Shown in pieces: positions 8,055 to 59,450 of a DNA stretch of 64,000 nt (position 1 is the first letter of the stretch; every line of letters begins with the position of its first letter). Under the pieces are notes generated by a model. That model searched no databases. It had not been told where the DNA came from and saw only the letters and a list, made by a program, of their open reading frames with translations. The stretch covers positions 1-64,000 of the forward strand of contig NZ_CP012669.1 in the NCBI RefSeq assembly GCF_001281485.1, given 5' to 3'. Origin of the DNA: Altererythrobacter epoxidivorans. Lineage in GTDB: Bacteria > Pseudomonadota > Alphaproteobacteria > Sphingomonadales > Sphingomonadaceae. The translations under genes and the position numbers were made by a program.

Positions 8055-8290
8055 AGCACTGACACAACTTTGCCAAAACAATGCGTAATAAATGAATAAC
8101 ATGGTAAACAAAATACAGCGTTGAGTCGTATTTTAGTTAAGTAAGGTTACGTAGTTAACCAGGTTGTTCTTTTATTAATGCTTTTCCCTAGGGTATGGCG
8201 CGAAAATAAAAGAAACGGGTTAGTTAACGTCAAAGCTTGACTAGGTACGGTTAGACGGGGGGTAGTCGTCAAAGCCGGGGGCAAGCGGCA
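8055..8290 (+). promoter_or_regulatory. AT-rich intergenic region upstream of the GGDEF gene
   Basis: This 236-base gap is clearly richer in A and T than its surroundings, with several GTTAAC/TTAACC-like words between 8130 and 8230. GTCAA-AGC-TTGAC at 8229-8241 is a small perfect palindrome. The gap very likely carries the promoter of the GGDEF gene; no specific -35/-10 pair was assigned. Confidence 0.4.
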
Positions 8291-31962: not shown

Positions 31963-32286
31963 ATGCCATCCCTGCTCGGCACCAAGATTAATGAACTTCG
32001 TCGGGAACGCGGGCTCACGCTTGAACAGCTTGCGCAAGCGACCGACAGCTCAAAGAGCTATATGTGGGAGATCGAGAATAAGGACGTTGCCCGCCCATCT
32101 GCCGAGAAACTTGAGAGGATTGCGAACGCTTTAGGTGTCACGTCCGCGTTCCTGATTGACGCCTCGCAGGTCAAGCCGACCGAGGATGTGGAAGACACAG
32201 CATTCTTTCATCGATTTCAGAAAGCTGATCCCGATGTGAAGGCGAAGCTCAAGCGGATTCTGGACGTGCTAGACGATGAGGAGTGA
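31963..32286 (+). CDS. XRE-family regulator of an ImmA/IrrE pair
   Basis: This is a 107-residue protein. The first 65 residues are a Cro/CI helix-turn-helix (GTKINELRRERGLTLEQLAQ, SSKSYMWEIENKDVARPSAE), followed by an acidic tail (LDVLDDEE). A GGAGG ribosome binding site precedes ATG 31963. The end overlaps the metallopeptidase gene by 11 bases, the classical arrangement in which the ImmA/IrrE protease cleaves its XRE repressor after a stress signal (known for the family, inferred here). The palindrome 75 bases upstream is the likely operator. Confidence 0.88.
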   Translation: MPSLLGTKINELRRERGLTLEQLAQATDSSKSYMWEIENKDVARPSAEKLERIANALGVTSAFLIDASQVKPTEDVEDTAFFHRFQKADPDVKAKLKRILDVLDDEE

Positions 32287-33124
32287 TCCCACCACACCAA
32301 GCGCGTGGGCCAATACCCTCGTGACGATGTGGGGGCCGCGGTTCCCGGTAGATGTGCGCCAAATCGCGCTCGAATACTCCAAGCGTTTCAGCGATCCCAT
32401 CCTGGACATCATTGAAGCGCCGGTGCCGTGCTTCGAGGGCGCGCTTGCTCCGCTCAAAAAGCGTGGCGGGTGGGCCATCCTGTATAATCCGGGCATCCGC
32501 TCGGCAGGGCGGATTAATTACACCCTCGGGCACGAATGGGGACATTACCTTTGTCACCGCCAGCAATCGCCCGCTGGATTCGAGTGTGGTGAGAGCGACG
32601 TGCTGGGCGGATCGCGGCAGCAGGAGCGGGAGGCAGATAAGTTCGCATCCTATCTGTTGATGCCGCTCACCGATTTCCGAGCCCAGGTAGGTGCACAGCG
32701 CATGACGCTGGACCTCTTGAAGCACTGCGCTGATCGCTATGATGTATCGCTGACGGCCGCTGCGTTAAAGTGGCTGGAAAGCACCGGTCTGTGCGCCGCC
32801 GTTGTGGTCGCCACCAACGGCTTCGTGTTGTGGGGCCGCCGGAGTGCAGCAGCGGGCCGCGCTCGCATCTTTTTCCCATCCGGCATGGAATTGCCGCGAG
32901 GATCTCTCGCCGCAGGAAGCGGTGGCTCATCTCCCCCGTCTGAGGGGCAGGACCTGCCGCCGGGCGTCTGGTGGAACCGGCCGGTGCGCGAAGTCGCAAT
33001 CTTTGCTGACCATTACGAAATGACAATCTCGCTGCTTATCTTTGAGGACCACGGCGTGTTGCCCGACGGCTGGGAAGACGATAAGGTCGAGGACACGGTT
33101 GATCGCTTTGCGCTGAGGAAATAG
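32276..33124 (+). CDS. ImmA/IrrE-family zinc metallopeptidase
   Basis: This is a 282-residue protein. The zinc motif is HEWGH (H86, E87, H90) in NYTLGHEWGHYLCH, with the probable third ligand E119 in READKFASYLLMP, the COG2856/DUF955 signature. The C-terminal 130 residues form a less conserved sensory-type domain. The gene overlaps the XRE gene and should act on that protein, as ImmA does on ImmR in ICEBs1 or IrrE on DdrO. The pair may sense DNA damage and derepress the divergent genes at 30526-31830 or control element transfer; neither is proven. Confidence 0.88.
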   Translation: MRSDPTTPSAWANTLVTMWGPRFPVDVRQIALEYSKRFSDPILDIIEAPVPCFEGALAPLKKRGGWAILYNPGIRSAGRINYTLGHEWGHYLCHRQQSPAGFECGESDVLGGSRQQEREADKFASYLLMPLTDFRAQVGAQRMTLDLLKHCADRYDVSLTAAALKWLESTGLCAAVVVATNGFVLWGRRSAAAGRARIFFPSGMELPRGSLAAGSGGSSPPSEGQDLPPGVWWNRPVREVAIFADHYEMTISLLIFEDHGVLPDGWEDDKVEDTVDRFALRK

Positions 33125-33375: not shown

Positions 33376-34623
33376 TCATATATCGGCGGGCCAGGCCCAG
33401 CTGAAGTAGCGATTATAGACGTCGGCGAGGTCAGTCGGCGCAGCATGCGAGCTGATCGCGCTCGAATACCAGTGCGTTGTGGTCGCGATCGGTGTCGGGA
33501 AGGTTTGCGCGATGTAGGGATTGAACGGGCCGAAGGCTGGTGACACGGCGCGATAGTCCTTATTGATCGTCTTGAGCCAGCTCACGCAGACCGTTTGCGC
33601 TCCTGCGGCCTTCAGATAGGCCCGTGCACCCTCGAAGCTGTTACCCTCGGTGCAGATATCATCGATAACGAGGACACGCTTGCCGCCGCGCGCGGGCGGC
33701 GACTTATAGGGTTTGCCGCCCACTCCGCGGACCGGCGCCGGGTTGAGCCGGATCGTGTTGAGCTGATTGTCGAGGCCCACGCTTCCCCCTGAGGCCCGCG
33801 CGGTCTGCGATTTCACCGCTTTGGTGTGACGGAGAATGAGGTCGGGCAGATAGCTCTTGCGCAGTGACTGCCCCAGGATGTTGAGCGCCTCACTGATCAC
33901 CGTCGCGTTGGAAGTCGGCGCGTGCCCGGGATAGGCGGTGATATAGTCGATCTCGTCAGCGAGACCTGAAAAATAGATGCGCGCCGCGAGAAGACGGCCC
34001 CAGAAATTCGCATCGCCGGCCCCGTGTTTCGAGGTCGCCTTGGCGTTTTCAGAATAGGCATGCGCTTGTGCGTAGCGCGGCGAGAGCGTTGTGAAAGGCG
34101 CGAGCGCATAGACCCGCAGATCGCCCTGTTCGAGCGCCCAGAACCAGCCGTCGAGGCCCAGACAGAGGCAATCGACGAAGCGCGCGACGTCGCGCGGAGA
34201 GTCGAATTGAAAGCCGTAGGGGCTCGCCACTCCGTGCCACATGACGTTCACAAACAGCAGGCCGCCATTGGCAGCGGTCTTCATATCGTCGGTGGTGTTG
34301 CCGACATAGAGGACCTCATTCCGCTGCCAGCCCTTCTCGGAGAGGATATGCGCGGTGGAATCGGCGCGTGGCTTATACGGCATCCCGTTTTGGCCGCCGA
34401 TATAATAGCAGATCGGACCGAGCCGCTCTTCGAGCAGGGTCCGGAACGGCTTGGACTGGCCGGGACTGGTGACCGTCCAGTCATGGTTGCCAATGAAAAC
34501 CGGCTCGACACCCCGCGCCTTGAGATAGCGCAGCAGCCGCAGCGTTTCCTCAAACAGCGGCGCGTTGATCGTGCCCTTGGTCACGAGCACATCGTGCAGC
34601 GAAAAGATCGCCCCCTTGAGCAC
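33376..34623 (-). CDS. HAD-like domain fused to a phosphoribosyltransferase domain (ShosT-like)
   Basis: This is a 415-residue protein. Residues about 1-130 follow the HAD fold: motif I region AIFSLHDVLV, basic K84 in MPYKPRAD and motif IV VLYVGNTTDDMKTA (104-115). In motif I the nucleophile position two residues before D11 is leucine, so phosphatase activity is doubtful. Residues about 210-345 carry a type I phosphoribosyltransferase core with PRPP loop VLVIDDICTEGNSF (D321, D322). The GTG start at 34623 is two bases after the stop of the DprA-like gene; it is the last gene of a four-gene unit. By analogy with ShosTA, this could be a toxic effector controlled by a DprA partner. Confidence 0.8.
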   Translation of the reverse strand: MLKGAIFSLHDVLVTKGTINAPLFEETLRLLRYLKARGVEPVFIGNHDWTVTSPGQSKPFRTLLEERLGPICYYIGGQNGMPYKPRADSTAHILSEKGWQRNEVLYVGNTTDDMKTAANGGLLFVNVMWHGVASPYGFQFDSPRDVARFVDCLCLGLDGWFWALEQGDLRVYALAPFTTLSPRYAQAHAYSENAKATSKHGAGDANFWGRLLAARIYFSGLADEIDYITAYPGHAPTSNATVISEALNILGQSLRKSYLPDLILRHTKAVKSQTARASGGSVGLDNQLNTIRLNPAPVRGVGGKPYKSPPARGGKRVLVIDDICTEGNSFEGARAYLKAAGAQTVCVSWLKTINKDYRAVSPAFGPFNPYIAQTFPTPIATTTHWYSSAISSHAAPTDLADVYNRYFSWAWPADI

Positions 34624-34625
34624 GG

Positions 34626-35669
34626 CTAGCTATCCCCAAATAGCGAAAGTTGGCCCAACTGAGCGGGTGAAGGCTTGCCGATCGCCGACCGGACGAAGGC
34701 GTCGAACCGTCTCTGGTCGTGCGGTACGGTGAAGATTTCGCCGGTCGGAAGCCCCATGCCGCGCTCCAGCACCACGCGCTCGTCCGGCCACTCAGGCAAG
34801 CGCAGGCAGGCAATAGGCCGCTCGAGCGCGGTCGCGAAGCGGACCGTATGGGCCGTGCCGCTGCGGCGATTCCATTCGGCTGGGATCAGAATCCGGCCGA
34901 GCGCCGCCTGGAGCCGGTTGCGCTGGACGAAATTCTCGGCGCTGTAGGACGCTGTTGGTAGATACTCGCTGACGATCGCGCCGCCGGTCGCGAGAATATG
35001 ATCGCGCAGTCGACCTGAGCCCTTGGGATAGTCTTCGAGCATGCCGGTGCCCAGCACCGCGATCGTCGGCACGCCAGCGCGTAGCGAGTGTTCATGCGCC
35101 AGTTGATCGATGCCGGCCGCGAGGCCACTGACGGTCGGTACACCCCATTCGCCGAGACAAGCGCCCACATAGCGTGACAGGAAGAAGCCGTCGGCGCTGG
35201 GCTTGCGGGTACCGACGATCGCAATGGACGGCTCGGCAAGGCGCTCGACGCTGCCCTGCACGAAAAGCCAGTGCGGCGGGCGTTCAAGGTCGAGCAAGGC
35301 GGAGGGAAAGCCGGGCGAGCCCCGAAAGAGCAGACCAATGCCGAGCGCTTCGAGATGCTCGGCCAGGCGGTCACCCTGTTCAAGCGCATGCCCGCGAACC
35401 CGCGACCAGTGCCGCTTTGAGATGGCCTTGCCGTCGCTGCCTGCAGGGTTGGACGCCTCTGGCCCATATTCGAGCGCATCGCTGAACGATTTTTTGTCTT
35501 CCGCCATGGCGAACAGGGTTTTCTGACCAATGCCCCGCACCGTCGCGAGAGCGAGAAAGGCACGCTCCTCGTCGATCGTGCCCGCGCTCGGCGGGGTGAG
35601 CGCGGTCGCCGCATGGACGTCGCTGACACGGTCTGGGGGTCCGTCGTGGCTTGGCCGATCCATGCTCAC
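34626..35669 (-). CDS. DprA/SLOG-family protein 1 (ShosA-like)
   Basis: This is a 347-residue protein. A helix-hairpin-helix-like segment (FLALATVRGIGQKTLFAM) precedes the DprA Rossmann/SLOG domain with SIAIVGTRKPSADGFFLSRY, VSGLAAGIDQLAHEHSLRAG and IAVLGTGMLEDYPK, and RNRLQAALGRILIPAEW later. True DprA loads RecA in natural transformation, but here the gene is in an accessory operon with phosphoribosyltransferase genes on both sides. A similar pairing defines ShosTA, where the DprA protein is the antitoxin. It starts at GTG 35669, overlapping the upstream stop in GTGA; ATG 35663 is an alternative. Confidence 0.88.
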   Translation of the reverse strand: MSMDRPSHDGPPDRVSDVHAATALTPPSAGTIDEERAFLALATVRGIGQKTLFAMAEDKKSFSDALEYGPEASNPAGSDGKAISKRHWSRVRGHALEQGDRLAEHLEALGIGLLFRGSPGFPSALLDLERPPHWLFVQGSVERLAEPSIAIVGTRKPSADGFFLSRYVGACLGEWGVPTVSGLAAGIDQLAHEHSLRAGVPTIAVLGTGMLEDYPKGSGRLRDHILATGGAIVSEYLPTASYSAENFVQRNRLQAALGRILIPAEWNRRSGTAHTVRFATALERPIACLRLPEWPDERVVLERGMGLPTGEIFTVPHDQRRFDAFVRSAIGKPSPAQLGQLSLFGDS

Positions 35670-36319
35670 AGGCCTCCGAAGGCAAGTGGATCGTCGGGAA
35701 AAACCCGCCGCGCGACGAAGAGGCCGATGATCGGAACATTCGGGAATCGGGCCGCAAGCGCGGTGTGCATGGCCCGGTAATGGGTTCCGGCTGTCAGGAC
35801 ATCGTCGACGATACCGATTGTCTGCGGTGCCGGGGCGGCAATGGTTTCGTCGATCGCGTAGAGGTCGAGCAGGTCTTCGACGGTGACGCGGTCACCTTGT
35901 CCCGCTTCGTGCGACGCGGTGGTCGAGGCAGCCTGACGGACGAGCGCGCGCACGTCGGGCGCAGGCTGGCGCATTAGCCGGCAGATGCGCTCCATGCGAT
36001 CATCATAATCCGGGTGATCTGTTGCCTTCGACCCGGGCACGGGCACGAGGGTAGCAATGCCGAGCCACGCCGGGTTAAGCGCGGCGCCAAGCGCGCGGCC
36101 GCACGTGCCGATCGCTTGGCCCTTGTACCAATAATGTGGCTGGTCGGCTTGGCTGGGCTTCTTCTTGAGATTGCTGATAAGCTGGTTGGTGGCGCTGAAG
36201 GAATAGTCGCGGTGCGAGGTATATTCGTAGAGATAGTAGCACCGATCCTCGGCCGTCAGGTGATAATGATCCCCGCGGCTCGTCTCATCGATCTGCGAGA
36301 GCCGGACAACGTCAACCAA
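35666..36319 (-). CDS. Phosphoribosyltransferase-like protein (ShosT-like)
   Basis: This is a 217-residue protein. The PRPP-binding loop QTIGIVDDVLTAGTHYRA (D172, D173) is the hallmark of type I phosphoribosyltransferases. The front half carries ATLVPVPGSKAT, often seen in ComF-like members, though the ComF zinc finger is absent. A short acidic loop leads into a hydrophobic end. It overlaps the 3' end of DprA-like gene 2 by eight bases and the start of DprA-like gene 1 by four, so all are co-translated. The role as nucleotide-targeting effector is inferred from the ShosTA parallel. Confidence 0.82.
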   Translation of the reverse strand: MVDVVRLSQIDETSRGDHYHLTAEDRCYYLYEYTSHRDYSFSATNQLISNLKKKPSQADQPHYWYKGQAIGTCGRALGAALNPAWLGIATLVPVPGSKATDHPDYDDRMERICRLMRQPAPDVRALVRQAASTTASHEAGQGDRVTVEDLLDLYAIDETIAAPAPQTIGIVDDVLTAGTHYRAMHTALAARFPNVPIIGLFVARRVFPDDPLAFGGL

Positions 36320-37205
36320 GGGCGCTCCAGATGTCGTCGGGCGTCTTCACGCGCACTGCACCTTCGGCTTCGAAGCGGGCTGGCCACGTGATGTCCGTCC
36401 GCTGGAAGCAATTGTCGAGAATGAAGAGCTTGCGGCCCTGATGGAGCGCGGCGCGCGCCTGGGTCAGCGTGCCCGACGTATCGCCAGCCTCGACGATGAT
36501 CGTGCCCTCGGTGAGAGCGCTCATCGTGACATTGCGCTCGGGGAAGAAAAGCCGGTTATGCTGGGGTGCCTGCTTGGCGTAGCGAAGAACTGGCACCTGC
36601 GAGATCAGCAGATGATCGCGGGCGATCACCTCTTGCAGATCGGCATTCTCCTTGGGGTAGCAGGATCCAAGCGGCGTCCCGACCACGGAAATGGTGCGTC
36701 CGCCGCGCGCGATCGCGCCGCGATGGGCGGCCGAATCGACGCCCTTGGCAAGGCCAGAGACGACCGTGAAATCGCGATCGACGAGTTCGCGTGCAAGCCG
36801 CTCGGCGCGACGGATACCATCGGGCGAGGCCTCGCGGCTGCCGACGACGGCCACGCACCGGGTTTCGGTGATCTCCCAGGCGCCGCGATAATAGAGAAGC
36901 TCGACTGGGTGGCGCGCGTCGCGCAGCTTTGCGGGATAGTCACCGGCATGATGGATGCGGACGCCAAACTGATGGACACCGGCCTTCTTGAGCTTCGCCA
37001 TCACCTCGGCCGCGCACTGCTCGGCAAGCTGGGCGGGCACGAAGTCGGACGGAAGCGCTTCGGCATCGAGCGCAAAGCGATCGGCCAGGGTTTTGAAGGT
37101 CGCGCCCTTTTCCAGCCAAAGGGCCTCATAGGCGCCGAGCTCTCGGCGCGGCGAGATTGGCGCCAGCGCTGGTCCTGAATCGTTAAGGGCGAGACGCATG
37201 CTCAT
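36312..37205 (-). CDS. DprA/SLOG-family protein 2 (ShosA-like)
   Basis: This is a 297-residue protein and the first gene of the operon. A helical N terminus (LGAYEALWLEKGATFKTLAD) precedes a full DprA domain: RCVAVVGSREASPDGIRRAE, VVSGLAKGVDSAAHRGAIAR, ISVVGTPLGSCYPKEN and GTIIVEAGDTSGTLTQAR. It is more canonical than DprA-like protein 1, and the two are not close copies, so this is not a recent duplication. ATG 37205 was chosen over upstream frames that lack family similarity; ATG 37199 is possible. The promoter must lie in the 240 bases before the divergent gene at 37448. Confidence 0.88.
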   Translation of the reverse strand: MSMRLALNDSGPALAPISPRRELGAYEALWLEKGATFKTLADRFALDAEALPSDFVPAQLAEQCAAEVMAKLKKAGVHQFGVRIHHAGDYPAKLRDARHPVELLYYRGAWEITETRCVAVVGSREASPDGIRRAERLARELVDRDFTVVSGLAKGVDSAAHRGAIARGGRTISVVGTPLGSCYPKENADLQEVIARDHLLISQVPVLRYAKQAPQHNRLFFPERNVTMSALTEGTIIVEAGDTSGTLTQARAALHQGRKLFILDNCFQRTDITWPARFEAEGAVRVKTPDDIWSALG

Positions 37206-37447: not shown

Positions 37448-38269
37448 ATGCGGGATGAAGATGACGATCGGAAAAGGAAACGGTGGGAGGACGCTGAGGA
37501 GGAGCGCCACTATTGGGAATCGATCGAGGACGAAAAGCGGGAAGAAGAAGAGAAAGCGGCGCAGGCACAAGCTGACGCCATAGAGGCCATGGAAACGTGG
37601 TTCTTCGAGCAGTTCGAAGATCCGCAAGTCGAGATGCCTCGCGACAGCGAGGAGCAGAGCTTCATCTTTCCGTGGGGTGGCCCGTTCGAAGCAAGCGATG
37701 TCCTCCACGGCGAGTTTTCACACCGGTTCGACGAAGCGACCATCATGGCGGCGGTCGAGCATATCGAGCGCGACGGCACAGTCGAATAGGCGCCAACCTC
37801 GCACGGCGACTTCTATGAGCATCCGGACAGCGAACCTGACGAAGAGCCCGAAGCGACGCGCGTGGAGTTGACGGGCCGCATCCTGGATCGTCTCGACCAG
37901 CTTGAAGCGGCGATCGCGGCAATGCCTGGGCAGCCGGGCAATATTGGCCACAATGCGCTGCCAGAAGAGATTGGTCTGCCGCCATACGGCGACGAGGAAG
38001 TGGCGGAGATCAAAGCGGCGATTGCCGAGACGCGTACGGAACTGGCTGAGGTCGACCCCGACGCCGCCGTGCTTGCCACCCAGTCTCGTCGATTCGAGCA
38101 ATGGGGCAAGAAACTTGGCCTGTGGCTCGCCAAGAAAGGCGATCTGGCGGTCGACGAGCTCATCAAGAACGGCATCAAGGCTGTTACATGGGCCGGCGCG
38201 CTCACGCTATTCGGTGACCTGGCGCATGACCTTTTCGCGCTGGCCAAGGCCTTGCTCGCTCATTTCTAA
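37448..38269 (+). pseudogene. Conserved-looking coiled-coil gene interrupted by one in-frame TAG
   Basis: One frame runs from ATG 37448 to TAA at 38267-38269 and is broken only by TAG at 37787-37789. The first part (113 codons) is highly charged and glutamate-rich (KRKRWEDAEEERHYWESIED); the part after the stop continues in the same frame (APTSHGDFYEHPDSEPDEEP, then a coiled coil and hydrophobic end with WAGALTLFGDLAHDLFALAK). TAG could come from TGG by a single change. Either the gene is inactivated, or translation restarts at an internal site (for example ATG/GTG near 37862), or the stop is read through. I do not recognise the family. Confidence 0.65.
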
Positions 38270-38985
38270 GCTTCATCGTCTGCGACATCGCTGTCGCAGA
38301 GCCGCGCGAAATTCGGGGCTGCGGTGCTTAGCTCCGCATAGAGCGGCATGACGAGCATGAGCGAGGTCGCGAGGCACTCAATCAGAAGCCAGGCGCGGCG
38401 CGCATATTGCTCACCGCGCGGCGTGAAGGTCGCGCCGAGCCGGACAATGTCGAGCACTGCGAACGAGGATGCGGTCCCTGCGTCATTGGGATGGGCATAT
38501 TCGCTCAGCTGATCATAGAGCGCGCGGAATGCCGGCAGCGTCTTCGTGAGCTTGTCGACGGCGTTCAGAATGTTGATGGCGTCGGGCCGGTCGTCACGGA
38601 CGCGCGAGCCCATCAGCATGCTCATCAGCGTCGCGTCCAGCGTCTCGATATCACCACCTTCATAGCGGGTGACCAAAGGGTGGAGGCTGTTGAGGGCGGC
38701 GATCGACTCGATCGTCGCTCGGGTGAGGACGATGCCGGCGACATGGTCGTCCCGATCATAGGCGTCGAGTGCGGATCGTCCCAATTCCTCTATCCGCCAG
38801 AGCAGGCTGTCACGATAAAGCGTTGCCTTGAACGGCAGCTTGGAGCGGCGCGCGGTGCGACGCGCGTCGAGCGCTTGCGGCCTTGCCGCCGCGATCTGGG
38901 CGAGCGCGGCTCCGGCACTTGCCCGGCTCGCCTCATGGTCCCATTTGAGGGCGACATCGTCATTGTCCATGGATCCCATGTTCAT
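38266..38985 (-). CDS. Uncharacterised helical protein
   Basis: This is a 239-residue, mostly helical protein. RATIESIAALNSLHPLVTRY and AFRALYDQLSEYAHPNDAGT resemble proteins that are loosely HEPN- or DUF5677-like, but no catalytic RxxxxH motif is clear. The end is hydrophobic (LLIECLATSLMLVMPLYAEL). It converges on the interrupted gene, overlapping it by four bases, and is followed upstream on the same strand by the protease gene. ATG 38985, 38979 or 38970 may be the start. No function is assigned. Confidence 0.65.
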   Translation of the reverse strand: MNMGSMDNDDVALKWDHEASRASAGAALAQIAAARPQALDARRTARRSKLPFKATLYRDSLLWRIEELGRSALDAYDRDDHVAGIVLTRATIESIAALNSLHPLVTRYEGGDIETLDATLMSMLMGSRVRDDRPDAINILNAVDKLTKTLPAFRALYDQLSEYAHPNDAGTASSFAVLDIVRLGATFTPRGEQYARRAWLLIECLATSLMLVMPLYAELSTAAPNFARLCDSDVADDEA

Positions 38986-39152: not shown

Positions 39153-40292
39153 TCAGTCGCCCCGCCAAGTATCGAGTTGCCAATTGCTGTGCTCGGTGGC
39201 TACCTCGAGATAGCGCGACGCCAAGAACTGAGCGCGGGCGGAATCAGCTGCCGCGATCAGCTTAGCCGGCGCAGGATTGTCGGCCGGTGTGAACCAGACG
39301 AGACCGGTTTCGCGCTTGTGAACACGCGGTGAGACGATGGCGGCGAAGGCGTCGAGCGCCGCTTGCAGGACGCCATCGTCGTTGCATGCCATTTCCACGA
39401 AGACGTCGCGATTATCATCCATCACATAAATGTGTGCGTCGTAGACATAGGAGCTGAGGCTGGTGGTTTCATGCTTTGAAAAGCGCATCGCCACGAGCGT
39501 CTCAGAGTATCGTCCGGGAACGCCATAGCTCAGACTGAAGCCGTACTTTTCCGCGGCAAGATCTACCGCCGGCGTGATGGAAAGCAGGCTGTTATAGCCG
39601 GTCTCGACCAGCGATTTGTCTGTACCGAGGCTTTCGGTAACGAGCGCCAGCGCGATACCGGAGCGGTCGAGCGCGACGCCGCCGCTGAAGCCCCCGCGCG
39701 CCATGGTTGAGGCGATGAAGTGGCTCGCAGGTGAATGTCGGACGCGCACGACCGCGTTGATTTGCCCCAGCGTTGCGACCTGCACAGGAATGGTCGTGTA
39801 CGGGATCGGCGGGTATCCGAGGATGAGGATGTCGGCGAGGACGAGATCGTGCTCCTCGAGGTCATACTCGGTGTGCTGGCTCACCGAGATCGCTGGCAAT
39901 GGCGTGTTACCGACATCGACGCGGAAGACGGCGACGTCGATATTCTCGGGCCCGAAATGCGGGCCTTCTACGATTGTCAGCCGGCGCGGGGCGATCGCGT
40001 CGGAGTTGGCTTGCTCCTTCGGGTAGGCAGACTTGGTGGTTGCGACTTCCTTGATGGTCAGGCCTTCGACGACATGGCGCGCGGTGACGAATATCCCGTT
40101 ACCGATGTGGAAGCAGGAGCCGATGCCCTCATCGCCCTTTGAATCCACAACGGCAACATAGGCGACAGCTCCGGCTGCGCGAATATAGGTTTCGTGAAAC
40201 TGGCTTTTCTCAAAGTCCATTTGCAAATTCCGGGCAATTTCCGAGGCCGAAAGGCTTGAGACTGATTTAGCGGAACGGTGTTCGTTGCTCAA
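39153..40292 (-). CDS. Trypsin-like serine protease
   Basis: This is a 379-residue protein. A chymotrypsin/HtrA-type domain shows the catalytic triad: H73 in IFVTARHVVEG, D119 in NIDVAVFRVD and S203 in ARGGFSGGVALD. No signal peptide or PDZ domain is visible, so it is probably cytoplasmic, which fits a defence or effector-activating protease more than periplasmic quality control. The C-terminal 150 residues are unrecognised. The most upstream start is TTG 40292; ATG 40220 is an alternative that keeps the whole protease domain. It lies in tandem with the helical unknown, 167 bases upstream. Confidence 0.82.
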   Translation of the reverse strand: MSNEHRSAKSVSSLSASEIARNLQMDFEKSQFHETYIRAAGAVAYVAVVDSKGDEGIGSCFHIGNGIFVTARHVVEGLTIKEVATTKSAYPKEQANSDAIAPRRLTIVEGPHFGPENIDVAVFRVDVGNTPLPAISVSQHTEYDLEEHDLVLADILILGYPPIPYTTIPVQVATLGQINAVVRVRHSPASHFIASTMARGGFSGGVALDRSGIALALVTESLGTDKSLVETGYNSLLSITPAVDLAAEKYGFSLSYGVPGRYSETLVAMRFSKHETTSLSSYVYDAHIYVMDDNRDVFVEMACNDDGVLQAALDAFAAIVSPRVHKRETGLVWFTPADNPAPAKLIAAADSARAQFLASRYLEVATEHSNWQLDTWRGD

Positions 40293-42155: not shown

Positions 42156-42211
42156 TCCAGCCTCATCCTTGTCCGCCGGGAGAGGCCCTTGGGCCGGTCG
42201 GGGCGCGCCGC

Positions 42212-42263
42212 AACCTGCGGCCCGTCGGCCCGTGTTACCCGCGCCAGCCTAGGGCCGCAGGTT
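42212..42263. repeat. Perfect 12-bp inverted repeat upstream of the DUF2493 gene
   Basis: AACCTGCGGCCC (42212-42223) is matched exactly in reverse complement by GGGCCGCAGGTT (42252-42263), leaving a 28-base loop. It lies in the 219-base gap before the DUF2493 gene and has no downstream T run, so a simple terminator is unlikely; a structured leader or protein-binding site is possible. Confidence 0.6.
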
Positions 42264-42374
42264 TCCCGCTACGCGGTGCGCCTTGCCCCTTTCCCCGGCC
42301 CTGATCGGGCTCCGGCGGACAGGCCCGAGGCAATGGTGCCTCCTCTCCTTGTCCCCGCGATCAGGAGACACACC

Positions 42375-43310
42375 ATGTACGACAGCTTCATCGATCAGTT
42401 GAGCGGCCTCGACCTTTCAGGCCTCAGCATCAGACCAGCCCCCTTCAACGAGACCGATTTTCCCTGCGAGGACGCGATCGACCAGACGCTTGGCGCCGTA
42501 TGGTCCGACCTTTTCGCGATGTTTTCCGACACGGCCCTTGAGGCCGATGCCGAGGATATTGCTTGGGGCGTGGTCAATCTCTTTCACCGCGCAGCCAGCC
42601 GCAAGTCGGCTCAACTTGATCGGGCCAGCGACGAGATCCGGGTCCTCATCGCATCTGCCGATGGCTCCGAAGTGCATTCGAGCAATCTGGAAGAGCAGGT
42701 CGAGCGCGCGCAGGCCGCCGAGGCCAGCATGCTGGCCTTCGAGCAGATGCGTGAGGCGGCGGCAGCACTGTACCGCGACGAGACCGGTTCCTCGTGGAAG
42801 CCCATTTCGGGCTCGCGCACGAGCCATTCGCGCCACCTTACTTCGGCTGTGATCGATGCCCGCGATTTCCTCCGCGCACGTGCTGAGAACCGGCGTCACG
42901 CTCTGATTCCGGAAGGAACTCCGGTCGTTTTCACCGGTGGTCGCCAGAGCTTCGAGAGCGCCGAGGATGCGCGTGTCTACGCCGATAATATCTGGGCGAC
43001 GCTCGACAAGGTTCGCGATGCGGTTCCCGATCTCTTCCTGGTCCATGGCGGCGACGGTAAGGGAGCCGATCGTCTGGCCGCGAGCTGGGCTGAACGCCGC
43101 GAAGTGCAGCAACTGACCTATTCGCTCGATCGTCGGCTTGGTGCGCGCGCCGGGTTCAAGCGCAACGAGCAGATGCTCTCGCTCAATCCGCGTTATGTCG
43201 TCGCCTTTCCGGGCAATGGCGTGACCGAACGGCTGGTGATCGATGCCAAGACGCGCCGGATCACCGTGGTCGATCGTCGCGGCCTCTTGGGCACCACTCC
43301 CGGGTCGTGA
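42375..43310 (+). CDS. DUF2493 (SLOG-like) protein
   Basis: This is a 311-residue protein. A helical N-terminal half precedes a DUF2493 domain with PVVFTGGRQSF, LFLVHGGDGKGADRLAASWA and the C-terminal NQMLSLNPRYVVAFPG-like stretch (here NEQMLSLNPRYVVAFPGNG), which is a Rossmann/SLOG-type nucleotide-binding fold. The DUF2493 family is common on plasmids and elements; its ligand is unknown. ATG 42375 has the shared ATCAGGAG ribosome binding site. Confidence 0.85.
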   Translation: MYDSFIDQLSGLDLSGLSIRPAPFNETDFPCEDAIDQTLGAVWSDLFAMFSDTALEADAEDIAWGVVNLFHRAASRKSAQLDRASDEIRVLIASADGSEVHSSNLEEQVERAQAAEASMLAFEQMREAAAALYRDETGSSWKPISGSRTSHSRHLTSAVIDARDFLRARAENRRHALIPEGTPVVFTGGRQSFESAEDARVYADNIWATLDKVRDAVPDLFLVHGGDGKGADRLAASWAERREVQQLTYSLDRRLGARAGFKRNEQMLSLNPRYVVAFPGNGVTERLVIDAKTRRITVVDRRGLLGTTPGS

Positions 43311-52632: not shown

Positions 52633-54270
52633 GTGAATGATCTGATTAATCAACCCGACGCGCCACGGCTCATTTACGGGCTTCGGGACACAGGCTACAG
52701 TTTCAATACCGCCGCCGCTGACATCATCGACAATTCAATCGCGGCCAACGCGACCGAGGTCAATGTACGAATAGAGCTGTCCGAAGACGGCCGTAAATTC
52801 GTTTGCTTCGGTGACAATGGTGATGGAATGGACAGCGAGATGCTGTTCGACGCTATGCGTTACGGGGCGCCTGCCAGAGCTAATCTCGCCAGTCTCGGCA
52901 AATTTGGCCTTGGTCTCAAGACGGCATCCAGTTCAGTCTGCCTTAGGTTTACGGTCATTTCCCGCGAGTCCGAAGAGGCTGACTTCGCTAAGCTCGCTTG
53001 GGACCTTGAGCATGTCGAAGAGCAGAATCAGTGGGAAATGCTCCGCGAAGAAATGACCGCAGACGACTATGAGCTCTTTGAAGAGCTTTGCGGTGACAAG
53101 GGCACGCTAGTGGTCTGGTCCAAATGCGACCGTCTGTTGTCGAAAGAATATGACGATCCGGGTGGCGCGAGAGAACAGGCTGCAATCAGACGACTGGGTG
53201 AGCGGCTGATCGACCATGTCGCTCTCATTTATTATCGCTTCCTCGACAAAGGGGACGATCGTGAGAGGCACGTCTCGATAACCGTAAATGGCGAGCAAGT
53301 CAGACCGTGGAACCCGTTTTATCCTGAAAAGGCCGATCAGGTCCTCTCGCCTGAACAGCAGAAGCTTGAGATCGAACTGGAAGACGGGTCGGTTGAAACA
53401 GCGCAAATCAGGGCGTGGATTCTGCCCAACCGCCGGGATCTCACCAAAGACGAGCAGAAAGTCGCGAATATCACCAACCGCGGCCAAGGGTTTTACATTC
53501 ATCGCGAAGGGCGTGTGATCCAGCAGGGTGGCTGGCTCGGCGTGTTTGGCGCTGTTGAGCCGCATACATCATTGCTGCGCGTCGAGTTCGACTTCACTCA
53601 TAAGCTTGATGAGGCCTTCAAAGTCGACGTCAAGAAGTCGAAAATTCTCTTCGATCCGGCCCTTGAGGAAGCGCTCAAGACCTTGCTTCAGCCGACTTAT
53701 CGCGAGGCAGGAAACCGCTACCGACGCAAGGAGAAGGCAGCTGCGGTCGAGCGCGGCGTCGATCACGGCAGCGCGAATAAAGTCATCGGCAATACGCCTT
53801 CGACCAAAAAACCGGACGTTCAGTCTGCCGACGCGGGTCAGAAAACCGCTACGCTCAACAACAATCGCGGTGCAGGCATAAAGCTCCGGGTGCCCGTGGA
53901 TACGCACGTAAACCCGGACAGCATTCACGTTGAAGCTGTTGAAACCATTACGTCCGGTGATCTCTGGGAACCGGCCATGCGCAGCGATGCAGAGTCAGGC
54001 TTCGTGGCAGGCGTCCGCATTAACAAGCACCACGACTTCTATCTGAAAATCTATCAGAGGGCTGCCGCCAGTGGCTATGCAGTCGAGGGTATGGATCTGC
54101 TGCTGTGGGCTTTTGCTGTGGCTGAGCAGAACAACACCAACGATGACCTTGAGCCTATATTTGAGGACATACGCAACGAGATTTCGACCAATCTCAAGAA
54201 GCTGCTGCGTGAAGTGCCTCTGCCCGACGACGAAGAGCTGACAGAGGCCGGGGACGAAGAAGGGGACTGA
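52633..54270 (+). CDS. GHKL (MutL/MORC-like) ATPase of a restriction-type system
   Basis: This is a 545-residue protein. The GHKL ATP-binding fold is complete: N-box AADIIDNSIAANA (28-40), G1 box DNGDGMD (61-67) and G2 box GKFGLGLKTAS (89-99). A transducer-like domain follows (to about 370), then a linker and an acidic C terminus. MORC/MutL-like ATPases in predicted restriction systems occur with helicases, Dcm and Vsr (Iyer, Abhiman and Aravind 2008, recalled), which matches the genes that follow here. The HNH gene begins one base after this stop. ATP-driven clamping on DNA is the expected mechanism. Codon use and base composition are less GC-rich than in the transfer genes. Confidence 0.88.
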   Translation: MNDLINQPDAPRLIYGLRDTGYSFNTAAADIIDNSIAANATEVNVRIELSEDGRKFVCFGDNGDGMDSEMLFDAMRYGAPARANLASLGKFGLGLKTASSSVCLRFTVISRESEEADFAKLAWDLEHVEEQNQWEMLREEMTADDYELFEELCGDKGTLVVWSKCDRLLSKEYDDPGGAREQAAIRRLGERLIDHVALIYYRFLDKGDDRERHVSITVNGEQVRPWNPFYPEKADQVLSPEQQKLEIELEDGSVETAQIRAWILPNRRDLTKDEQKVANITNRGQGFYIHREGRVIQQGGWLGVFGAVEPHTSLLRVEFDFTHKLDEAFKVDVKKSKILFDPALEEALKTLLQPTYREAGNRYRRKEKAAAVERGVDHGSANKVIGNTPSTKKPDVQSADAGQKTATLNNNRGAGIKLRVPVDTHVNPDSIHVEAVETITSGDLWEPAMRSDAESGFVAGVRINKHHDFYLKIYQRAAASGYAVEGMDLLLWAFAVAEQNNTNDDLEPIFEDIRNEISTNLKKLLREVPLPDDEELTEAGDEEGD

Positions 54271-54271
54271 G

Positions 54272-55096
54272 ATGCTTGCCGAGAAGCAGGCTCTGATCCG
54301 CCAGGAAGTCGAGGAGGGAACCGGCGCTGCAATTTGCCTGGAGGAAGACAGGTCCGGAGTGCAGACAGCGATCAGGCTCTGGTTTGCAGACCTTGAGCGC
54401 TCTCACAGCCCGATAGTCACTCTTCGGCCCACGGGTCTGCGCCGCTTTGAAGCGAAGCTGGCATTCGGCAATTTTGCAGCTGATACGATCCGGCAGATGC
54501 AGCAGGCAAGCGCAGAAGAGCTCCAGCTCGCAAGGGCACTCGTCGCATCAGTAGCATCGAGCGCAAATCTGAAAATCGCTAACGGTCAGACAACCGATGA
54601 CTGGATAATCGACAATGGCAGTTTCACGATTATCGCAGAGAAACGGGGTATCGAGAGCCGGTTTGACGATGATTCCGTTGCAGAGACCTGCCGTGAGCTC
54701 GTCATCCCTGTTCTTGCCGCAATGGCAGAACTTTATGGATACGACCCGATCGAGGAAAGCGCCCCGTCCGATCAGGAAGCACTGACTGAAGGCGCCGTTA
54801 AACTCACCGTCGTACGCCGGCGCGAACGGAACCCACGCAATCGTTTGCTCTGCCTGCGTATCCACGGGGCCGTCTGCAAGATCTGCAGTCTTATTCCCGG
54901 CAAACTCTACGGCGATGCCGGGGCTATCATTGAAGTGCATCACCTGCAGCCTCTGTCTCTTTCCGGGGACCCCAGACCATACGATCCGGCAACAGACCTG
55001 ATACCACTTTGCCCAAACTGTCACCGCGCGGTCCACACAAGGCGCCCTGTTCCGTGGACACCTGCAGAACTCAGAAGCAAGCTGTCCAGTGACTGA
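54272..55096 (+). CDS. HNH endonuclease with unknown N-terminal region
   Basis: This is a 274-residue protein. The C-terminal 75 residues form a zinc-bound HNH nuclease: CKIC (near 203), IEVHHLQPLS (near 222) and LCPNCHRAVHT (near 246). The N-terminal 180 residues are unrecognised, and may bind DNA or partner proteins. The start lies one base after the GHKL gene, and the end overlaps the SNF2 gene by eight bases. The probable role is the nuclease of the restriction-type cargo. Confidence 0.88.
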   Translation: MLAEKQALIRQEVEEGTGAAICLEEDRSGVQTAIRLWFADLERSHSPIVTLRPTGLRRFEAKLAFGNFAADTIRQMQQASAEELQLARALVASVASSANLKIANGQTTDDWIIDNGSFTIIAEKRGIESRFDDDSVAETCRELVIPVLAAMAELYGYDPIEESAPSDQEALTEGAVKLTVVRRRERNPRNRLLCLRIHGAVCKICSLIPGKLYGDAGAIIEVHHLQPLSLSGDPRPYDPATDLIPLCPNCHRAVHTRRPVPWTPAELRSKLSSD

Positions 55097-56915
55097 CGGG
55101 CCTGCACCGCTTCCTGCCGATTTCAGGCAGCTTTCAGCGGCACCTCCTCAGGGCTGGGAGCTGTCGTCAAGAGTTGTGCAGCCGGAAATCCGGATCCGGA
55201 AAGAGGGTGCTGGTTTTGCGATCCACGTTGCTGGCACCAGAACTGTGCGGGGGGAAAAGAAAGTCTGGGACGCGCCCGGCCCGGACTACAACTGGGTCGC
55301 CGACGGAAATGTAATCCGCCCACTTCCTCACGATACGCCGGCCATAGTCCGGCAGATGCTGGGCGGGCAGCTGCCGAAAACGCTCAGCTTTCCCGATGTG
55401 GTGCGTCTTGTCCGGCTGGGTAATCCCGACATACCTGTCATAGCTGAAGAGAGCGTCTTCCACTCAGCGCAATCGGCTGCTGCCGACCTGCGCCCGGATC
55501 AGGACATTCCGGGTCTGCATGCGACTCTGTTCCCGTATCAGGCTCAGGGCGTAGCATGGATGGACCAGACCATACGGCATACTGGCGGCCTCATTCTCGC
55601 TGACGAGATGGGGCTCGGAAAGACCATCCAGATTATTGCCCTGCTGCTCTGCGAAAAACCGGAAACGTCACGACCAGCCCTCATCATCTGCCCGACGAGC
55701 CTGATCGCCAACTGGCGGAAGGAGATAATGAAGTTCGCGCCCGAGCTTTCTGTTCTCATCCACCGCGGACACAACAGAACCGGCATCACCGCGGGTCTGC
55801 AGCGGGCCCAGGTCGTGCTTTCAACCTACGACACTGTGGTCAACGATATATCCATTTTTGCAGGCATGACCTGGTCATGGCTGATCTGTGATGAGGCGCA
55901 GGCTCTGAAAAACCCCGATTCCGGGCGCAGGCGGTCAGTCGGGAGGATTCCCAGGCAGCGAACCATTCCGATGACAGGGACGCCGGTCGAGACATCGCTC
56001 CTGGATCTCTGGTCGCTTGCCGACCTCGCGATACCTGGATTGCTGGGAAGTCGGCAGGACTTTGAAGCCGATCATCCGGACTCCGAGGAATCGGCAAAGA
56101 ATCTGGCTCGTCTGACCGATCCCGTTGTTCTCTGCCGAAAAGTGAGGGATGTCGCCGGCGACCTTCCGGAGCGCATCGATATCGATCTGCCACTCGAACT
56201 CGGCGATGAGCTTTCCCGGCGTTATGATGAAGTACTGGCCGAGACGCTTGAGAAGTACCCTGTGGCAGGCAATCTCGTCGCGACAGGTCAGTTGCAGCTC
56301 TTCTGCGCCCATCCCTGGCTGCAAGGATCGGGCGACCCCGAGAGGGATCAGGACGCTGGGATCAAGCCGTCAGCCGGAATGCCGCTCTTCACACCGAAGG
56401 TGGAGCGCGCAATCGCTATTCTCGAAGAGGCGTTCAGGAGCGGACGCAAGGTTCTGATCTTCGCAATTTTCAATCGCTGTGGCGAGATTCTCCGTGAGGC
56501 AACACAGGGACGGCTGCCGGATGCATACTGGGGGGCGATCAACGGGGCCACGCCGCAGGAAGAGCGGCAGGCAATCGTTGACGCATTCTCCTGCCACGAT
56601 GGGCCGAGCTGCCTTGTACTCAATCCAAAAGCGGCGGGTGCCGGACTCAATATAACAGCTGCAACGGTAGTCATTCACTTCACCCAGGCATGGAACCCTG
56701 CACTTGAATCCCAGGCAAGCGCCCGCGCGCACCGACGCGGGCAGACCGAACCTGTCTATATCTACCGGCTGTTTTACGAGGACACGGTCGAACGGGTGAT
56801 GATTGACCGATCTCAGTGGCGCCGCGAACTTGGCAACGAAGCAGTCCCGGTATCGACACGTGATGCAGATGATCTGAGGCGGGCCCTTTCAATCCGGCCT
56901 GGCGGAGAAAATTGA
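55089..56915 (+). CDS. SNF2-family helicase/translocase
   Basis: This is a 608-residue protein. After a 140-residue N-terminal domain comes a SNF2 ATPase: Walker A ADEMGLGKT (171-179), DEAQ box in WLICDEAQALKNP, motif III PMTGTP and motif VI SARAHRRGQTEPV. Such enzymes move on double-stranded DNA. The start is GTG 55089, overlapping the HNH gene by eight bases; the stop overlaps the next ATG (TGATG). It should power searching or remodelling for the nuclease of the system. Confidence 0.92.
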   Translation: MTDGPAPLPADFRQLSAAPPQGWELSSRVVQPEIRIRKEGAGFAIHVAGTRTVRGEKKVWDAPGPDYNWVADGNVIRPLPHDTPAIVRQMLGGQLPKTLSFPDVVRLVRLGNPDIPVIAEESVFHSAQSAAADLRPDQDIPGLHATLFPYQAQGVAWMDQTIRHTGGLILADEMGLGKTIQIIALLLCEKPETSRPALIICPTSLIANWRKEIMKFAPELSVLIHRGHNRTGITAGLQRAQVVLSTYDTVVNDISIFAGMTWSWLICDEAQALKNPDSGRRRSVGRIPRQRTIPMTGTPVETSLLDLWSLADLAIPGLLGSRQDFEADHPDSEESAKNLARLTDPVVLCRKVRDVAGDLPERIDIDLPLELGDELSRRYDEVLAETLEKYPVAGNLVATGQLQLFCAHPWLQGSGDPERDQDAGIKPSAGMPLFTPKVERAIAILEEAFRSGRKVLIFAIFNRCGEILREATQGRLPDAYWGAINGATPQEERQAIVDAFSCHDGPSCLVLNPKAAGAGLNITAATVVIHFTQAWNPALESQASARAHRRGQTEPVYIYRLFYEDTVERVMIDRSQWRRELGNEAVPVSTRDADDLRRALSIRPGGEN

Positions 56916-57349
56916 TGAGCAGTCAGACTTATGAGAAGCCGCTGACGGCGAACGACACTGGAGAGACCGGAGGTCATCAGGCAGGAATACACATACCGAA
57001 ATCACAGACGGATCTGATCGCGCTGCTTCCGTTTCTCGATCCTGCGCAGAAGAACCCCGATGCCTGGCTGGAGATGACGGACGACACGGGCGTGACCTGG
57101 CGCTTCCGCTATATCTACTACAACAACAGGCTTCATGATGACGGCGGGACAAGGGACGAGTACCGCATCACCCATATGACCAAGTTCTTCCGCGCTGTCG
57201 GTGCGACGGAAGGCGATGTAGTCGTGCTTACCGGATCTCCGGGAAGTCTAACCTATTCTGTGTCAGTCCGGAAGGATGAGTCGCCTCAAGGCGAGGAGGC
57301 AGGTGCACCGGTGAGGGTCCGCCTGAAAGGCTGGCGACGTGTACATTAG
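56915..57349 (+). CDS. EcoRII-N (B3-like) DNA-binding domain protein
   Basis: This is a 144-residue protein. The opening LTANDTGETGGHQAGIHIPK and the following beta-rich body (WRFRYIYYNNRL, DEYRITHMTKFFRAV) match the EcoRII N-terminal DNA-binding pseudo-barrel, which reads CCWGG. The catalytic domain of EcoRII is missing, so cutting must come from a partner such as the HNH protein. It ends VRVRLKGWRRVH, a tail shared with the next protein (see findings). The start ATG 56915 overlaps the SNF2 stop by one base. CCWGG specificity would fit the Dcm and Vsr genes but is inferred. Confidence 0.85.
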   Translation: MSSQTYEKPLTANDTGETGGHQAGIHIPKSQTDLIALLPFLDPAQKNPDAWLEMTDDTGVTWRFRYIYYNNRLHDDGGTRDEYRITHMTKFFRAVGATEGDVVVLTGSPGSLTYSVSVRKDESPQGEEAGAPVRVRLKGWRRVH

Positions 57350-58976
57350 AGAAGCCGGAGAGCCGACAGATCCGCCAGGCGCGCGGCACCAAGGAAGCAT
57401 CCGACAACCTGGATCGGTGGATGATCTCCCGATCGGCGTCCTTCACCTTGGTGTGAAGACTGCAACGCTGGAGAGGGCCGGTTTCCGCACCGTCGGCGAT
57501 CTCGCCAGCGTAACCCGGGAGCAGATCATCCGGATTCCCACAGTGGGCTGGCGTACGGCCGATCTGCTCAGTGAAAACCGGCAAGCTTTGATTGATGCTT
57601 CGGATGCTGAGACGGGCACTGACTGGGACAGGTACTGCGAAACAACGCGTATCCCGCTCCTGCCGCATGAGGGCCGGCCGAGTTCAGGTAAAGACTTTCT
57701 GGCTTCCCTTCCGGACTTTCTCGCCGGGGTCGCCGACAATCTTGCTGACGAAACCTTCTCCGCAATTCTTCGCGAACGTATCTGTCAGCCTCCGGAACGG
57801 CAGAAGACGCTCGATGAAATAGCTGCGACAACCAGCCCTCCGGTCACCCGCGAAAGGATCCGGCAGAAGGAGAAGAAGCTGCTGGGGCAGCTGACCGGCG
57901 GGCTACTCAACGAGACCTATGGAACGCTGGGAATACATTTCCGTCCGGAGTTTTCGATCTGGTGGAAACGGGCTGCTGACCGTCTTTCCCACCTTGAGGA
58001 AATCGAGTTCACAGATTTCGTAGAAGCCCTCTCCGCTGAATGGGAGGTGCCCAATCATGCGGTCATAACACAGCTCCCGATCATCCTTGCGATCGTCACC
58101 GGCGAACCGCAGATGTCCGGTGAGTTCCGGGCAGCGAGTCGGGTCGATCCCCGGCTTTTCGGCGATCTGAGGGGGGAAGTGCTCGGGCTCCCACTGAACC
58201 GACTCAGACTGGGCAGATACGCTGAGCGTCTGGCTGAAGCCGGATCAGAAACTGTAGGGGATATCGTCGCGAGGTTGCGCGCCGGCAGCCTGGGGGCAAG
58301 GAGAGGAAAGGCGGACGAGGTGGCTGCGATGCATGCAAATCAGCTGGCCTCCTGCCTCCGTGATGATGGTCTGATCGACTGGCGGTCATACCGGACAGCC
58401 AACGCACTGAGCTGTCTGCCAGCCTCGCCAACGGTCAATGCCGCTGAGTTCGTCGCCACACTTCGCGAGACCGTCTGTGACTTGCTGACCGCGTGCCGCA
58501 TTACGAAGCGCGCGTCTGAAATTTACCGTCTCAGGACGAGCCGCACTCTTGGGAGCCAGATGACACTGCAAGCTGTCGCCGACGCCCTCGATACCCATCT
58601 GCCGACGGTCAAACGCGAAGAAACGGTGTTTCTGAGTTTTCTGAATGGAGTTCTGATCGGTCACGACTTCAGCAAGTTGCCCGTATGGCTGGATGACCTC
58701 TGGCTGAAGTACTGGGATGAAGCCCGGGCCAGCTATGAAAGTGCCCGGGACAACTACGGAGAATTCTCGGAGAATCTTGCCTGGAAATGGCGACTGACGG
58801 TGCGCGACATCGGCAAAGCTGCACCAACGATCTGGGCAGTGCTGAGCGGCTATCCGAACGACAGGCGCTCGAAAAGAGCCATCAGCAAAGCTCCCGTCGT
58901 GAACCCGATCATTGATCCGGACCCTCAGTTACCTGCCGGAAGGATCCGGCTCCGTGGCTTCCGGCGGGTGCATTGA
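57339..58976 (+). CDS. Protein with RNA polymerase alpha-CTD-like and sigma-region-4-like segments
   Basis: This is a 545-residue protein. Near residues 32-80, IGVLHLGVKTATLERAGFRT with VGDLASVTREQIIRIPTVGW resembles the helix-hairpin-helix of the RNA polymerase alpha C-terminal domain. Residues about 150-185 (KTLDEIAATTSPPVTRERIR) resemble sigma region 4; a second, weaker pair lies near 285-320 and 395-430. No nuclease motif is visible. The C terminus GRIRLRGFRRVH repeats the tail of the EcoRII-N protein. It starts at GTG 57339, overlapping that gene by 11 bases, and its 3' end overlaps vsr by 48. DNA binding and scaffold functions are inferred. Confidence 0.7.
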   Translation: MYIREAGEPTDPPGARHQGSIRQPGSVDDLPIGVLHLGVKTATLERAGFRTVGDLASVTREQIIRIPTVGWRTADLLSENRQALIDASDAETGTDWDRYCETTRIPLLPHEGRPSSGKDFLASLPDFLAGVADNLADETFSAILRERICQPPERQKTLDEIAATTSPPVTRERIRQKEKKLLGQLTGGLLNETYGTLGIHFRPEFSIWWKRAADRLSHLEEIEFTDFVEALSAEWEVPNHAVITQLPIILAIVTGEPQMSGEFRAASRVDPRLFGDLRGEVLGLPLNRLRLGRYAERLAEAGSETVGDIVARLRAGSLGARRGKADEVAAMHANQLASCLRDDGLIDWRSYRTANALSCLPASPTVNAAEFVATLRETVCDLLTACRITKRASEIYRLRTSRTLGSQMTLQAVADALDTHLPTVKREETVFLSFLNGVLIGHDFSKLPVWLDDLWLKYWDEARASYESARDNYGEFSENLAWKWRLTVRDIGKAAPTIWAVLSGYPNDRRSKRAISKAPVVNPIIDPDPQLPAGRIRLRGFRRVH

Positions 58977-59450
58977 CGAGGCACCCACGGATTTTACGTC
59001 CTGGCCTCTGATTTCGAACAGTAGTTCATCGCCCCTGAGCCAGGATGTCAGCCGCGTCAGAAGTTCCTTCAGTTCAATTCTGTTCTTTCCCTTGAGCGCG
59101 CATTCCCAGATGGTGGCAGTGCGCCATCCTTCCGAAAGCAGCGCTGATCTGACAGCCTTGTCCCTCTTCTGATTGGCGCCGATCTTCGCCGCCCAGAATT
59201 CCGTGCGTGTCCCTGGAAGCCGGAACAGATGGCAGTCATGACCATGCCAGAAGCAACCATGCACGAAGATAACTGCATGAAACCGGCTGAGTACGATGTC
59301 GGGCTTGCCGGGCAGATCCTTCCGGTTGACCCTGAAGCGATAACCCAGCCGGTGAAGGCCACTCCGGATCAGAAGTTCAGGCTTCGTGTCCCTTCCCCTG
59401 ATAGCCGACATGTTGCGGCTTCTTGTCGCGGGATCATGGACGTCAGGCAT
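58929..59450 (-). CDS. vsr: Vsr-family very-short-patch repair endonuclease
   Basis: This is a 173-residue protein. It begins MPDVHDPATRSRNMSAIRGR and has E25 in TKPE, D51 in GKPDIVL, H64 in FVHGCFWHG and H69, which equal the catalytic positions known for E. coli Vsr (Glu25, Asp51, His64, His69, recalled). Vsr nicks T:G mismatches formed by deamination of 5-methylcytosine in Dcm sites, so it protects the genome beside its dcm partner. ATG 59450 overlaps the dcm stop by eight bases; the 3' end overlaps the alpha-CTD-like gene by 48. Confidence 0.93.
   Translation of the reverse strand: MPDVHDPATRSRNMSAIRGRDTKPELLIRSGLHRLGYRFRVNRKDLPGKPDIVLSRFHAVIFVHGCFWHGHDCHLFRLPGTRTEFWAAKIGANQKRDKAVRSALLSEGWRTATIWECALKGKNRIELKELLTRLTSWLRGDELLFEIRGQDVKSVGASSMHPPEATEPDPSGR

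Follow-up and report, generated by a model that had tools for sequence, protein, structure and literature searches.

ShosTA, the closest described relative of the locus considered here, is presented as a two-gene module in the literature passages available. According to a review (PMC12593503), ShosT is both a phosphoribosyltransferase (PRT) and a pyrophosphatase and it disturbs the purine pool, while ShosA binds DNA and counteracts the toxicity, the trigger being Gp0.7 of phage T7. Passages of Rousset 2022 (PMC9122126) describe protection against T7 and λ by a DprA–PRT pair, and an excerpt of PMC10732053 places ShosTA among the systems activated by a phage single-strand-binding protein or, alternatively, perhaps by a DNA–protein intermediate. 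Here, we analyze the first 64,000 nucleotides of contig NZ_CP012669.1 of Altererythrobacter epoxidivorans (the window), in which four minus-strand genes, DprA1, PRT1, DprA2, and HAD-PRT, form an operon running from position 37205 down to 33376. We propose, with a probability of roughly 0.7, that this quartet is a composite anti-phage toxin–antitoxin system of two distinct ShosTA modules, joined in an ancestor and since both inherited and transferred as a unit. Established from the sequences are two DprA–PRT pairs with fixed partners, genes that overlap or almost touch, common descent, and a low ratio of nonsynonymous to synonymous substitution rates (dN/dS) in all four genes. No four-gene or double ShosTA was found in the titles and abstracts of the ShosTA literature searched, which is a weak test of absence. 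As far as searched, the quartet is new as a combination and known in its parts.

PsyrTA and RqlHI share with the operon the coupling of a DprA-like antitoxin to a PRT-bearing toxin. PsyrT also bears a RecQ-like helicase, unlike the two PRT proteins of the operon, in neither of which Pfam finds a helicase domain. HAD-PRT matches the PsyrT profile of PADLOC at an E value of 0.057 only. PMC5512222 describes a helicase-fused PRT that is coupled with DprA.

Composition of the Operon

The four open reading frames (ORFs) are all intact, and their order is DprA1, PRT1, DprA2, HAD-PRT.

36312..37205, minus strand: DprA1, 297 aa, ATG start; ShosA-like DprA/SLOG protein, predicted to be the short pair's antitoxin and sensor
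35666..36319, minus strand: PRT1, 217 aa, TTG start; ComFC-like PRT without HAD, predicted toxin of the short pair
34626..35669, minus strand: DprA2, 347 aa, GTG start; ShosA of the HAD-type module
33376..34623, minus strand: HAD-PRT, 415 aa, GTG start; ShosT of the HAD-type module, with a degenerate HAD and a PRT domain

For DprA1, an alternative TTG start at 37310, giving a longer ORF, is possible. Neighboring genes share 8 bases where DprA1 ends and PRT1 starts and 4 bases where PRT1 ends and DprA2 starts; DprA2 and HAD-PRT lie 2 bases apart. The initial annotation had described two DprA and two PRT proteins alternating in a tight, ShosTA-like operon; its coordinates and overlaps hold, and PADLOC labels all four proteins ShosA or ShosT. 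Pfam PF02481 is found in DprA1 (4.5e-58) and DprA2 (2.7e-52), while PRT1 has no Pfam match and the HAD and PRT matches of HAD-PRT are sub-threshold only.

Judged by sequence, DprA2 and HAD-PRT are an ordinary ShosTA module. DprA2 matches the PADLOC ShosA profiles PDLC03961 (3.2e-82) and PDLC02997 (8.3e-62) as well as the solved ShosA 9vzo across residues 34–346 (2.4e-61), and HAD-PRT matches the ShosT profiles PDLC03012 (4.4e-83) and PDLC03962 (1.7e-54) as well as the solved ShosT 8zvb over its full length (residues 2–412, 1.1e-82). ShosTA of E. coli P2-like phages (PDB 8zvb, 8zva, 9vzo), which both proteins thus match over most or all of their length, has the same ShosA-first order, the same motif for binding phosphoribosyl pyrophosphate (PRPP), and a HAD part without the nucleophile Asp. 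In HAD-PRT, the PRPP-binding motif (D321, D322, T325, G327) is invariant in 10 aligned sequences. The position of the HAD nucleophile Asp is occupied by Ser in nine of the ten and by Gly in one (L045; L numbers are our handles for loci), which makes it unlikely that the HAD part works as a normal phosphatase. The initial annotation had named the HAD fusion, along with the two non-identical DprA proteins, as a feature of what may be a different system, but the solved ShosT is itself a HAD-PRT, and so are the E. coli P2-like phage copies. The difference is that the phage system consists of two genes, whereas the HAD-type module of the window sits behind another DprA–PRT pair.

In that other pair, DprA1 matches ShosA profile PDLC03961 (5.5e-94) and PRT1 matches ShosT profile PDLC03962 (237 positions; 2.5e-52). 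Since PDLC03961 matches both DprA proteins and PDLC03962 both PRT proteins, PADLOC does not split the two types cleanly. The fold of PRT1 resembles ComFC and the PRT domain of ShosT; it extends along the whole 217 aa, and no HAD match was found in it. Because the HAD domain of the solved ShosT is missing, we call DprA1 and PRT1 “ShosTA-like, short type”. Adjacent DprA1-like and PRT1-like genes, likewise with a PRT lacking HAD, occur on Sphingobium plasmid pNIN1, an E. coli plasmid, and an Enterobacter plasmid and in Burkholderia phage Mana and Pseudomonas phage Riah; those short pairs stand alone, whereas that of the window is coupled to a HAD-type module.

The GSR and YPK positions of DprA1 align with those of Streptococcus pneumoniae DprA (3uqz). 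R115 and K175 of the latter, presumably its single-strand DNA contacts, correspond in DprA1 to R124 and to the lysine of YPK, and the matching arginine of DprA2, R155, is conserved in all 15 of the DprA2 sequences aligned. There is thus a hint, from these alignments, that both DprA proteins can bind DNA.

The “doubled form” of the initial annotation proved misleading, as the two halves belong to distinct subtypes and neither is a copy of the other. An origin by internal duplication was considered and rejected: DprA1 and DprA2 are about 30% identical over a 157-residue match, less than DprA1 and the chromosomal DprA (37%), and PRT1 against HAD-PRT gives no tblastn match at 1e-6 and a weak profile match only.

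Occurrence, Partners, and Descent

A scan of public genomes with a PRT1 alignment gave 162 relatives, and the counts of PRT1 loci rest on the best 80 of these. The four genes occur in the same order and on the same strand at 10 of the 80 loci, in Sphingobium fluviale, a Porphyrobacter metagenome-assembled genome (MAG), Sphingomonas koreensis, Stakelama pacifica, Acetobacter tropicalis, a Rhodospirillales MAG, a Reyranella MAG, Labrys sp. KNU-23, and two Sphingopyxis MAGs. All of these quartets, and only quartets, lie at a PRT1 identity of at least 67%, the other 70 loci lying at 65% or less. HAD-PRT is rare in genomes of the class (1 of 385 at E ≤ 1e-40, namely the window's own) and of the phylum (2 of 398, the window's own and one other); that the same order nevertheless recurs at 10 of the 80 loci argues that the quartet is more than a chance assembly. 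Among 396 genomes of the order, five have a PRT1-type match of 115 bits or more, the one that follows being at 74 bits, and these five include all three genomes with a HAD-type match. A comparison of contig sizes, made with the best 120 of 251 HAD-PRT and the best 120 of 918 PRT1 homologues, gives a hint only: 20 of 118 HAD-PRT clusters share a contig size with a PRT1 cluster, versus 0–2 in offset controls. HAD-type loci without PRT1 occur in plasmids, in phages, and in one further genome.

The partners are fixed. DprA1 lies just upstream of PRT1 in 117 of the 118 loci with room upstream (genomes 80/80, viral contigs 28/29, plasmid and phage records 9/9), and DprA2 immediately precedes HAD-PRT in 30 of 31 such loci, all but a split copy in Rhizobium sp. 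ACO-34A; these sets include near copies. No exchange of DprA–PRT partners within 400 bases was seen in the loci examined. At the exceptional L176, the PRT1 match is weak (50 bits) and the DprA ORF some 840 bases upstream scores as DprA2 (148 bits); we did not treat this locus as a swap. Such fixed, unswapped partners favor one DprA per effector, in keeping with the initial suggestion that each DprA would control one effector. L052 (G330) carries, besides a short DprA1–PRT1 pair at 7506–8974, a second DprA1-like ORF about 5 kb on (13948–14679, 403 bits), beside which no PRT1 match was found.

Junction positions in the ten quartets were taken from candidate start codons. Relative to the DprA1 stop, PRT1 starts at −8 in seven loci, at −4 in two, and at −32 in one; the HAD-PRT junction is +2 in seven, 0 in two, and +3 in one; and DprA2 starts between −4 and +3 of the PRT1 stop in eight.

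In a PRT1 tree of 116 rows, the 11 quartet rows (the window and the ten others) form one clade with a Shimodaira–Hasegawa-like approximate likelihood ratio (SH-aLRT) support of 96 and with no pair-only row inside. Left out of this tree were 8 of the 123 loci with a hit, since their best piece was too short (L006, L021, L078, L088, L120, L173, L174, L176). In a HAD-PRT tree of 130 rows, all 11 quartets fall within one 60-row clade (support 96), 17 further rows of which share a contig size with a PRT1 cluster; the number is 19 with P0021 and P0024, which matched but were left labeled “context unknown”. No locus of this clade was seen as HAD-type alone, about half of its rows being of unknown context. 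L004, split by an IS66 element, is labeled “alone” in the HAD-PRT tree, P0035 is the same protein as L061, and L127 was left out for its weak match. Duplicate loci of the same genomes (e.g., L009, L010, L050–L053) were omitted from both trees. P0017, in which part of DprA2 is fused to HAD-PRT, appears to be a frame-shifted read-through and was not used.

The four proteins have also diverged together: their distances co-vary with r of 0.90–0.97 over the 10 complete quartets (permutation p at most 0.0002), mean identities across quartets being 87% for DprA1, 76% for PRT1, 75% for HAD-PRT, and 73% for DprA2. In nine chosen pairs of quartets, compared for each of the four genes, dN/dS could be computed in 33 of the 36 comparisons and ranges from 0.016 to 0.214; in the sole unsaturated pair, the window and L055, dS is 0.22–0.27 and dN/dS 0.029–0.115. 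Both halves of the quartet look functional as judged from sequence.

Several observations weigh against the composite system. Most dS values are near or above 1, which makes the dN/dS ratios rough, and transfer of the genes together on one element would give congruent distances too. In L062 and L079, the nearest candidate DprA2 starts are 45–54 bases past the PRT1 stop. L059 and L060 are near copies, and the Acetobacter quartet stands on a contig of 4,965 bases (L058) that is possibly a contamination. Viral contigs with both types number 0 among 13 HAD-type and 0 among 30 PRT1 loci, many matches lying near contig ends; these 30 came from the alignment-based viral scan, the window PRT1 alone finding 0 relatives. 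At 70 of the 80 PRT1 loci, DprA1 and PRT1 occur without the HAD module, and PRT1 is therefore independent of that module. Six of these pair-only loci have under 1.5 kb of sequence behind PRT1, and in four DprA1 or PRT1 is split (L078, L088, L098, L120); L127 has a weak HAD-PRT-like match (67 bits) behind PRT1, probably another PRT. The initial annotation had asked whether the four genes always occur together, and had named scattered single-gene homologues as the contrary outcome. The quartet is kept in some genomes (10/80) while the majority have the DprA1–PRT1 pair only, and the homologues in these loci come as two-gene pairs, not as scattered single genes.

Both module types also lie next to each other in rhizobial plasmids of NT-25, R. 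leguminosarum GLR17, S. alkalisoli YIC4027, and Rhizobium sp. ACO-34A, the HAD-type module of the last being split by an IS66 element. The rhizobial modules are tail to tail on opposite strands, whereas those of the window are in tandem. Rhizobial PRT1 is 34–40% identical to the window PRT1 and forms a separate clade (support 100). A single origin of the rhizobial and tandem unions is rejected by the approximately unbiased (AU) test (p-AU 0.006) in a 46-row subset made up of 12 of the 15 union and 34 of the 101 pair-only rows; the two types therefore came together on at least two occasions. On these trees, the rhizobial union is convergent, with an origin separate from that of the tandem quartets.

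Mobile Element and Neighboring Genes

The operon is carried by a conjugative-type element (19822–51557) beside tRNA-Leu (19822–19908), with genes for an integrase, a primase, a Strawberry-notch helicase, ParB, ArdC, a single-strand-binding protein, a coupling protein, and a TrwC relaxase. To locate the element's right end, the genome was searched for another copy of the 23-base tRNA-Leu end, allowing up to 2 mismatches, and none was found. Relatives of the ParB-like protein occur at 5 of the 11 quartet loci, the window counted, versus 1 of the 70 pair-only loci. The following genes lie around the operon.

39153..40292, minus strand: trypsin-like serine protease (PF13365, 2.1e-11), possible accessory gene by association only
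31963..33124, plus strand: CapH/CapP-like regulator and metallopeptidase pair (PADLOC 9e-29 and 9e-62), convergent with the operon
37448..38269, plus strand: uncharacterized gene upstream of the operon
38266..38985, minus strand: uncharacterized gene upstream of the operon
42189..43310, plus strand: SLOG-family protein (YspA, PF10686), on the same element
52633..58976, plus strand: GHKL ATPase (MzaB-like), HNH protein, SNF2 helicase (ZorD/DpdE-like), restriction endonuclease-like protein, and cytosine methylase, together with 59443..60675, minus strand
60790..62088, minus strand: HipA-like kinase gene

The protease, which shows motifs of the His/Asp/Ser type, belongs to a family found near 8 of 34 HAD-type loci (L040, L041, L043, L061, L079, L134, L137, L167) versus 1 of 107 pair-only loci (Fisher p 4e-5, with loci that are not independent and include near copies). 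It lies within about 0.3 kb of the module in L040, L041, L043, L134, and L137, about 1.3 kb downstream in L061 and L079, and about 1.9 kb upstream of the operon in the window. It is a candidate accessory or trigger of HAD-type ShosTA.

The CapH/CapP-like pair was dismissed as a regular partner, being present only in the window and L054 among the 11 quartets, some of which have short flanks; no CBASS (cyclic-oligonucleotide-based anti-phage signaling system) core gene was matched among the 19 ORFs put to PADLOC. The two uncharacterized genes occupy the same place in L056 and L057 at 69–91% identity, and relatives of the SLOG-family protein, 35–37% identical, lie near these same quartets. The cluster at 52633–58976 with 59443–60675 is a probable further restriction or Mza-like defense.

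Proposed Function and Alternative Explanations

In the composite system that we propose, each DprA would bind DNA and restrain or counteract its own PRT. The four genes would be translated in step, each toxin after its antitoxin. A DNA or replication signal caused by the phage would free one or both PRT enzymes. Using PRPP, these would upset the nucleotide pool and thereby bring the infected cell to a halt. With two different effectors and two sensors, the system would respond to more kinds of trigger and would still have one pair in reserve against a phage that blocks the other.

How closely the two modules work together is where narrower forms of this reading part. They may be two independent ShosTA modules that lie side by side on the same mobile element without a functional link, to which we give somewhat less than even odds. 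Each module does occur alone elsewhere, co-transfer accounts for the congruent distances, and the element bears other defense-like genes; on the other hand, the junctions are tight in most of the ten loci, the quartet PRT1 clade has no pair-only row, no HAD-alone locus was seen in the 60-row HAD-PRT clade (with context lacking for about half of its rows), and there is a second union of separate origin. The tight junctions, together with the co-divergence (r 0.90–0.97), a clade without seen loss, and low dN/dS in both pairs, are also what a cooperative four-part system would lead one to expect, one in which the DprA proteins form mixed complexes, the PRTs share a pathway or one of them guards its counterpart, and loss of either pair breaks the system. 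We regard it as doubtful, since DprA1 is closer to the chromosomal DprA (37%) than to DprA2 (about 30%), the partners are unswapped, and both pairs live alone elsewhere. A four-part defense machine, in which the two DprA proteins would cross-regulate two PRPP-using effectors and nucleotides would come under attack in two steps or on two signals, perhaps with the trypsin-like protease as an additional trigger through cleavage of an antitoxin, seems to us unlikely.

A competence-derived function in DNA uptake or recombination, instead of defense, would be suggested by the folds that PRT1 and both DprA proteins share with ComFC and DprA of natural transformation and by the conjugative-type element. 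Yet a separate chromosomal DprA at 850657–851268 scores better (243 bits versus 197 and 179), DprA1 and DprA2 fall under the TIGR00732 cut-off (154.4 and 142.5 versus 191.15 bits), and the solved structures that DprA2 and HAD-PRT match are those of the ShosTA toxin–antitoxin system. The remark in the initial annotation that no competence genes are present is borne out among the annotated neighbors of the operon, and holds for those genes only. We consider this function very improbable.

For the ShosTA family, PRT1 represents a short ShosT-like protein in which the PRT chemistry would stand by itself, free of a HAD domain. The two subtypes were joined at least two times separately, and one union became a stable operon in several alphaproteobacterial groups, a hint that the pairs fare better in company than singly. 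These unions thereby offer a test case for why different toxin–antitoxin defense modules fuse, be it for back-up against phage inhibitors, for a wider trigger range, or for real cooperation.

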